A DNA stretch of 63,409 nucleotides from Dehalococcoidia bacterium (GTDB lineage Bacteria > Chloroflexota > Dehalococcoidia > Lucifugimonadales > Australimonadaceae), in the NCBI GenBank assembly GCA_022449765.1, contig JAKUPZ010000010.1, positions 1 through 63,409 of the forward strand, read 5' to 3'. How positions within the stretch are numbered: the first letter of the stretch is position 1; every line of letters begins with the position of its first letter. The translations under genes and the position numbers were made by a program. The notes beneath the pieces are model-generated. The model made no database searches and was not told where the DNA came from. It saw only the letters and a program-made list of their open reading frames with translations. Positions 28,524-29,650 of the stretch are shown piece by piece.

Positions 28524-28601
28524 TAATTTTCAGTGGTTTTGCGGATTCGATTTGAGTAATCTCAAAATTGCTAGATCCATGCCCAGAGGGAGGCGAATAC
28601 A

Positions 28602-29597
28602 ATGCGCCGAAAATTGTTTTTAAGTTTTGCCAGTGTGTTTTTGTTAACAATGCTTACTACTGTAAGTGCTTTTGCTGATCACAGTAGCGCATCCGTACTT
28701 GGCGGTTCTGCTAACTTCCGTGATGCAAGTGCACAAAGCGATAGTTTTGTAGTGAATATCACGGGTGCAACAGTTCTATCTGCTGGTTCAACGTACCAAG
28801 GATGGCTTGTAGATGAAGCAGGCACTAAATTGAGCGTTGGGGTTTATGGGCCTGGTCCTGACCTTAAAGGGACCTATGTTAGCCCTTCAAATGCTGACCT
28901 GCTGGCCGATTACAAGACGTTCCTAGTAACGATAGAACCGAAACCAGATGATTCCTCAGCTGATTCAGGTAATGTTGCGTATGGTGACTTTGTCCCATCA
29001 GCTACATCTGATGCCATTGGAACTTTGCTGGGAGAAGCTGGCCAGTTGAGGACGCAGGCGAATTCCATTCTATCGAGTGCTAATACTGCCGAAGCCTCTA
29101 GTGATCTTGCAAGTCAAACGTCTGGTGCACAGGCAGTTATTGACGCTTTAGGTGCCTTGAAAGCTACTGCCGAGAATATATCTGTTCAAGCAGGCGATAT
29201 TAAGGCAAATGCCGCGGGAGATACTCTAATCTCTACTGCTGCGGATGCTGTAGTTTCCTCAGCTTCAAATGTAATAGCAATTGCTGATAAGTTGAATGCT
29301 ACCTCTTCTCGTGCGGCCGCTGCGACTGCAACAGGCCTAGCGCTCGAATTGGAATTAGATAATGTAAAAGCCGCTGCTGGACAGTTAGTGAATGGTGATG
29401 ATTCAGGGAATGGATCCGCCGGCCTTTACACCAATGTACAGGACATTGGCAAGATGAATTTAGTAGTGGGTACACCCCCTGCTACTGGTGATTCGATGTT
29501 AATGAATGTTATATGGGTCACTTTAGCAATCGGGATGTTGATGATGCTAAGTGGAGCAATCCTTTACAATAGAAGACCATTGCGAGCTGTGGCATAA
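28602..29597 (+). CDS. Exported surface protein with RskA-like domain and sortase-like C-terminus
   Basis: A 331-residue protein. Residues 1-25 are a signal peptide (RRK, then a hydrophobic core, then SAFA-D). Residues ~40-130 contain YQGWLV (65-70), a G-rich strand region and FLVTIEP (107-113). These match the extracellular domain of RskA-type anti-sigma factors, but no cytoplasmic anti-sigma domain or preceding TM is present. Residues ~135-265 are an Ala/Ser-rich helical region. The C-terminus is PPATGD (292-297), a ~24-residue hydrophobic stretch and NRRPLRAVA, the layout of a cell-wall sorting signal. GGGAGG precedes the ATG. Function unknown. Confidence 0.75.
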   Translation: MRRKLFLSFASVFLLTMLTTVSAFADHSSASVLGGSANFRDASAQSDSFVVNITGATVLSAGSTYQGWLVDEAGTKLSVGVYGPGPDLKGTYVSPSNADLLADYKTFLVTIEPKPDDSSADSGNVAYGDFVPSATSDAIGTLLGEAGQLRTQANSILSSANTAEASSDLASQTSGAQAVIDALGALKATAENISVQAGDIKANAAGDTLISTAADAVVSSASNVIAIADKLNATSSRAAAATATGLALELELDNVKAAAGQLVNGDDSGNGSAGLYTNVQDIGKMNLVVGTPPATGDSMLMNVIWVTLAIGMLMMLSGAILYNRRPLRAVA

Positions 29598-29614: not shown

Positions 29615-29650
29615 AAATAAAAAGGCCTCCATTTGGAGGCCTTTTTATTT
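29615..29650. terminator. Bidirectional intrinsic terminator
   Basis: Perfect 16-bp stem (29615-29630 with 29635-29650) and an ATTT loop, with a GGCCTCC core flanked by A-rich and T-rich ends. It can end both the 28602 gene (+) and the convergent lpdA-korAB-thyX operon (-). Its 3' end runs into the thyX stop codon. Confidence 0.95.

Follow-up and report, generated by a model that had tools for sequence, protein, structure and literature searches.

A SAR202 stalk protein with an LPxTG-like PPATGD signal and a single sortase in a bacterium apparently without peptidoglycan

Sortases are known for attaching proteins to peptidoglycan or for assembling pili that terminate on it. A large marine lineage that carries an intact sortase and substrates for it, and in which genes for peptidoglycan synthesis are not detected, raises the question of what the enzyme attaches its substrates to, and the identity of that target would help explain how the SAR202 envelope is built. 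The question is posed here by a surface-protein gene on contig C10 of a SAR202 (Chloroflexota) metagenome-assembled genome (1.61 Mb, 96.8% complete, 35 contigs); this contig, 63,409 nucleotides in length, is the window analyzed. SAR202 is placed in the class Dehalococcoidia of that phylum in PMC10444878. From the sequence data, the stalk protein is probably processed by the genome's single sortase and linked to an envelope acceptor other than peptidoglycan, in a bacterium that apparently has none. The initial annotation, which proposed a wall- or S-layer-attached stalk protein served by a sortase of altered specificity, is partly supported.

The architecture assigned to the open reading frame in that annotation (signal peptide, RskA-like domain, stalk, PPATGD, hydrophobic span and double-arginine tail) is confirmed by the frame itself, the PF10099 match, the structural model and the family alignment (Table 1), and is kept across 30 aligned homologues. 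The hydrophobic N-terminus, taken as a signal peptide from sequence alone, closes with VSAFA followed by DH, an AxA-type site. No cytoplasmic anti-sigma part precedes this signal peptide, which opens the N-terminus, so the description of an RskA-like domain lacking its anti-sigma portion also holds. PF10099 (RskA_C) matches the domain with an E-value of 4.6e-8 and 33.8 bits against a curated cut-off of 29.4, over profile positions 54-127 of 135, and 20 of the 28 aligned family members match it at E<=0.01. The likeness to RskA is thus one of sequence profile; the domain is modelled at low confidence (mean pLDDT 44 from 2 input sequences), too poor for fold comparison. The predicted stalk is modelled with block pLDDT values mostly of 65-87 (AlphaFold2, 2 sequences), and at the C-terminus PPATGD is followed by the span and then by NRRPLRAVA. 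A Foldseek search with the whole model returned generic helical bundles, none at E<=0.001, and is left out of the argument. A PDB sequence search with the protein gave 0 matches. Directly ahead of the sorting linker lies a further motif that is strongly kept as Y-x-x-x-Q-[DNK]-[MIL] across the family, with Q280 invariant in 28 rows.

Table 1. Features of the surface-protein locus, in window coordinates
Feature	Position	Strand	Basis
Ribosome site GGAGG	about 28589-28593		seen directly in sequence
Surface-protein gene, 331 aa + stop	28602..29597	+	ATG start, ORF, homologues
Signal peptide (residues 1-25; cleavage probable after AFA)	28602..28676	+	sequence, hydrophobic N-terminus in 30/30 homologues
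RskA_C-like domain, residues 42-119	28725..28958	+	PF10099 match
Ala/Ser-rich helical stalk, predicted, residues 133-284	28998..29453	+	AlphaFold2, 2 sequences
Y-x-x-x-Q-D-[MIL]-[AG] motif, residues 276-283	29427..29450	+	conserved, directly ahead of linker
Sorting motif PPATGD, residues 292-297	29475..29492	+	sequence, family alignment
Hydrophobic membrane span, about residues 300-322	29499..29567	+	sequence; modelled helix 297-323
Basic tail RRPLRAVA	29571..29594	+	sequence
GC-rich palindrome with A/T runs on both sides	29620..29646	.	direct reading of sequence

The flanking genes, named by eye without a database search, resemble a sodium/solute symporter and thyX. The palindrome sits between the surface-protein gene and the convergent thyX-like gene and looks like a two-way terminator; it is absent from the list produced by a terminator scan. 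A relative in SAR202 cluster bacterium OSU_TB62 shares 68% identity across the protein and matching gene order around it. A scan of genome contigs returned a single relative, in the SAR202 record VFHU01000018.1, and a search of a viral sequence collection returned none.

Within the order, a search with the single protein finds matches in 60 of 250 genomes (E<=0.001), and a 28-row profile finds them in 97 of 247 at 1e-5 (88 strong, 9 weak or partial). Among the 79 homologous C-termini that were fetched with their stop codon (4 more ran past the fetched stretch and were dropped), 77 carry P-x-x-G, mostly as [LP]Px[TV]G[DE], with a hydrophobic span and a brief basic tail behind it; the two others read TISVGD and PGSVGD. 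In these 77, the position ahead of P is taken by L (36), P (21), A or T (18) or another residue (2); that ahead of G by V (36), T (31) or another (10); and that after G by D (55), E (11) or another (11), with a few of these counts possibly mis-registered because the script used the last fit. The family alignment has 7 invariant columns, one of which is G296 of the motif. The order-wide family of similar termini on which the initial annotation depended is therefore present.

Curated models for known signals do not reach these tails. TIGR01167 (LPXTG_anchor) scores 12.4 bits on the surface protein against a cut-off of 15.9, and PF00746 is matched by only 1 of 28 family members. Three class members that lie outside the order (G264, G267 and G272) encode proteins ending in LPATGD, LPKTGD, LPKAGD and LPSTGE, and because these relatives end in LPxTGD, PPATGD looks like a derived LPxTG signal, as the initial annotation had suggested in calling it a variant. 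Peptidoglycan synthesis is not assignable in these three genomes, the first two having an MraY-family match under the curated cut-off and G272 none. In G272, which has no detected MraY, the LPSTGE-ending protein is encoded about 0.8 kb ahead of the sortase gene (L230 / L205, G272:C49). PPATGD-like tails also occur in other SAR202 genomes on proteins outside the family, among them an SMP-30-like propeller, PF03640 repeats and other domains. One SAR202 genome (G054; L140, L141) encodes several very large proteins, in open frames of about 1100-2100 aa, with tails like LPRTGG, together with propeller-like proteins that end in LPAVGD. Larger SAR202 genomes seem to hold many sortase substrates.

The source genome itself gives a simpler picture. 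Across all frames it contains 59 matches to P-x-[TAVIM]-G-D against 52 to a reversed control pattern, and the surface protein is the only one in which a span and a stop follow within 60 codons (0 of the 58 others; best other hydropathy 0.97). A search with a profile of the C-terminus likewise gives one real match. A weak second match, at C4:100762, was rejected, as it aligned over the span only and looks by eye like a polytopic CcdA-like membrane protein. The sorting signal thus seems to be unique in this genome for motifs of the P-x-[TAVIM]-G-D type, the type that the search can see; other motifs would escape it.

The sortase that the initial annotation required is present as one gene (G000:C3:2509-2922), which matches PF04203 with an E-value of 3.9e-15 and 54.5 bits against a cut-off of 26.6 and lies on a different contig from the substrate. 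It is the only convincing sortase in the genome; a second, weak PF04203 match resembles, by eye, a phosphoglycerate mutase. PF04203 is matched in 49 of 59 genomes, the source genome included, and within the order 158 of 247 genomes have a PF04203 sortase, almost invariably as a single copy. The active-site His, Cys and Arg are kept in 20 of 21 aligned SAR202 sortases, again including the source-genome enzyme. The sole exception belongs to a pair of adjoining sortase genes in G018 (L052; G018:C1:261749-262165, beside 262941-263351), one of which reads FGN in place of the catalytic His and VTA in place of the Cys and is likely a pseudo-enzyme. SAR202 sortases form one clade (support 100/97), whose nearest neighbours, in G252 and G293, are joined to it with weak support (87/84). 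The source-genome enzyme reaches no NCBIfam class cut-off among the classes matched (C, D, E, F and GN), the best being class F at 24.7 bits against a cut-off of 166, and a PDB sequence search with it recovers 2kw8 and 4d70 weakly. All sortases characterized by then read a PXT core, according to PMC5148588; against that background the PxV seen so often in this family stands out. The proposed alteration in sortase specificity fits both the replacement of Thr by Val in about half of the family and an enzyme that falls below every class cut-off.

Family and sortase occur together in 71 of the 247 order genomes, with the family only in 17, the sortase only in 87 and neither in 72; the p-value of 5e-5 for this co-occurrence ignores kinship and is weak by itself. 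In the 87 genomes that have a sortase and no stalk protein, the enzyme must have other substrates. Many sortase-bearing genomes without the family belong to the order families f28 and f41. The 17 genomes without a sortase at E<=1e-5 make up part of the 88 that bear the stalk family. Eight of these fall in family f34, in which the sortases that are detected have weak scores (about 1e-9 to 1e-11), and of the other nine, six are 66-80% complete. The remaining three are 97% (G030 and G233) and 94% (G048) complete, so the gap is not fully explained: the tail may persist without a sortase in some proteins, or the search may miss divergent sortases.

This gap is also a point in favour of the strongest alternative, in which the protein is simply held in the membrane by its C-terminal span, a plain stop-transfer anchor, and the sortase has other substrates or is a relic. 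The failure of the tails to reach the curated LPXTG models fits that alternative as well. A plain anchor would not call for a motif, whereas 77 of 79 C-termini retain P and G, 66 of these 77 with D or E next, matching tails recur on unrelated proteins, and the sortase active sites are intact in all but one of those aligned. A plain membrane anchor is accordingly judged unlikely, if still the best placed of the alternatives to sortase processing.

Given sortase processing, the next step is the acceptor, for which peptidoglycan is the usual candidate. MraY is detected in 0 of 30 near relatives, the source genome included, by a search in which 12 of 14 controls match, 10 of them over the cut-off. 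It is likewise detected in 0 of the 41 order genomes that are at least 90% complete, of which 33 have a sortase. These belong to a set of 245 class genomes of at least that completeness (41 in the order and 204 outside it, a split taken from row order, with order members first). Outside the order, 79 of the 204 genomes have both sortase and MraY, 4 the sortase only, 7 MraY only and 114 neither; here MraY is counted at E<=1e-5, giving 86 genomes, 80 of which pass the curated cut-off. The order is a clear exception to the strong link between sortase and MraY in the rest of the class. A penicillin-binding transpeptidase is absent in 29 of the 30 near relatives, and the source genome has none. The one transpeptidase (PF00905) among these relatives, in G023 (L089; G023:C25:1839-2612), may reflect contamination, belong to a related enzyme or be a genuine exception.

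Published genome descriptions agree with this result: PMC10444878 and PMC11994032 state that SAR202 genomes lack peptidoglycan synthesis and suggest an S-layer, and PMC10284905 dates the loss of peptidoglycan before the marine radiation of the class. Because MraY is missing from every sampled genome of the order while sortase and MraY go together elsewhere in the class, peptidoglycan is unlikely to be the acceptor. Wall attachment in the usual sense, one of the two placements offered in the initial annotation, is not borne out, and the other, attachment to an S-layer, is possible.

On the favoured reading of sortase-mediated attachment to another envelope component, the signal peptide would export the protein and the C-terminal span would hold it at the membrane once exported. 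By homology, the single sortase would then cut between PPAT and GD, after the fourth residue of the motif, and transfer the freed carboxyl group to an amine of some envelope component that is not lipid II. Should the genome reading hold and no peptidoglycan be made, normal lipid II cannot be the acceptor; the likeliest candidate, as a first guess, would be an S-layer protein or glycoprotein, with a membrane lipid second. The helical bundle would act as a spacer, presenting the RskA_C-like domain on the cell exterior. A broader proposal, given an even chance here, is that SAR202 kept its one-copy sortase after the loss of peptidoglycan, with a new acceptor (S-layer glycoprotein or lipid) and, in small genomes such as this one, a single conserved stalk substrate, the two together forming a dedicated system for covalent attachment at the surface in the absence of peptidoglycan.

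Two other fates for the cut protein have been considered, and both appear improbable to a similar degree. The sortase could polymerize the protein or couple it to further subunits by way of a lysine, as happens in pili built by sortases. Such a role would suit a cell in which no peptidoglycan acceptor seems available, and PF04203 cannot separate polymerizing from anchoring sortases. Against it, neither the 7 invariant nor the 12 nearly invariant columns of the family hold a lysine, so there is no fixed lysine of the pilin type, and no pilin cluster is apparent by eye beside the gene. Alternatively, the enzyme could cut the ectodomain and release it with water as acceptor, so that the protein is shed; cutting without transfer would require no acceptor at all, but sortases are normally transpeptidases and no positive evidence points to release. 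That the protein is left over from, or works with, an RskA anti-sigma system, as its PF10099 match might suggest, can be set aside as very improbable, since the cytoplasmic anti-sigma domain is missing, the RskA_C-like domain lies behind a signal peptide, the flanking genes do not look like a sigma factor, and none is seen by eye among the 16 open reading frames of at least 100 aa between 22 and 36 kb.

Attachment by the single sortase to a non-peptidoglycan acceptor would be assembled from parts of known kinds. As far as searches of open-licence papers show, the pairing of a PF04203 sortase and a drifted signal in a peptidoglycan-less lineage appears undescribed, and that literature yielded no paper that connects SAR202 with sortase. 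The RskA anti-sigma-K factor shares with this protein an extracellular domain by sequence profile (PF10099), whereas here the anti-sigma domain is lacking and the domain stands on a predicted stalk with a sorting signal. LPXTG signals and their class A-F sortases have in common with the SAR202 system the order of motif, span and basic tail, a His/Cys/Arg sortase (in the source genome) and class relatives with LPxTGD. They differ in that the motif here is PPATGD, with Val for Thr in about half of the family, the sortase falls short of every class model and no peptidoglycan synthesis genes are detected. Class E sortases, which read LAXTG and include S. coelicolor SrtE1 (PMC5148588), likewise use a non-standard motif, and the source-genome sortase bears them a remote likeness (20.2 bits). 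In class E, P is changed to A within the motif and proteins are anchored to the cell wall, whereas in SAR202 the change affects the residue before P (L to P), and V often replaces T. Comparable too are the archaeosortases and their PGF-CTERM tags, described in PMC5244752, in which a C-terminal tag sorts surface proteins such as S-layer proteins in archaea without peptidoglycan. That system uses another enzyme family and another motif; in SAR202 the tail is PPATGD, and not a C-terminal motif of the archaeosortase/exosortase PGF or PEP type, and a PF04203 sortase is present.
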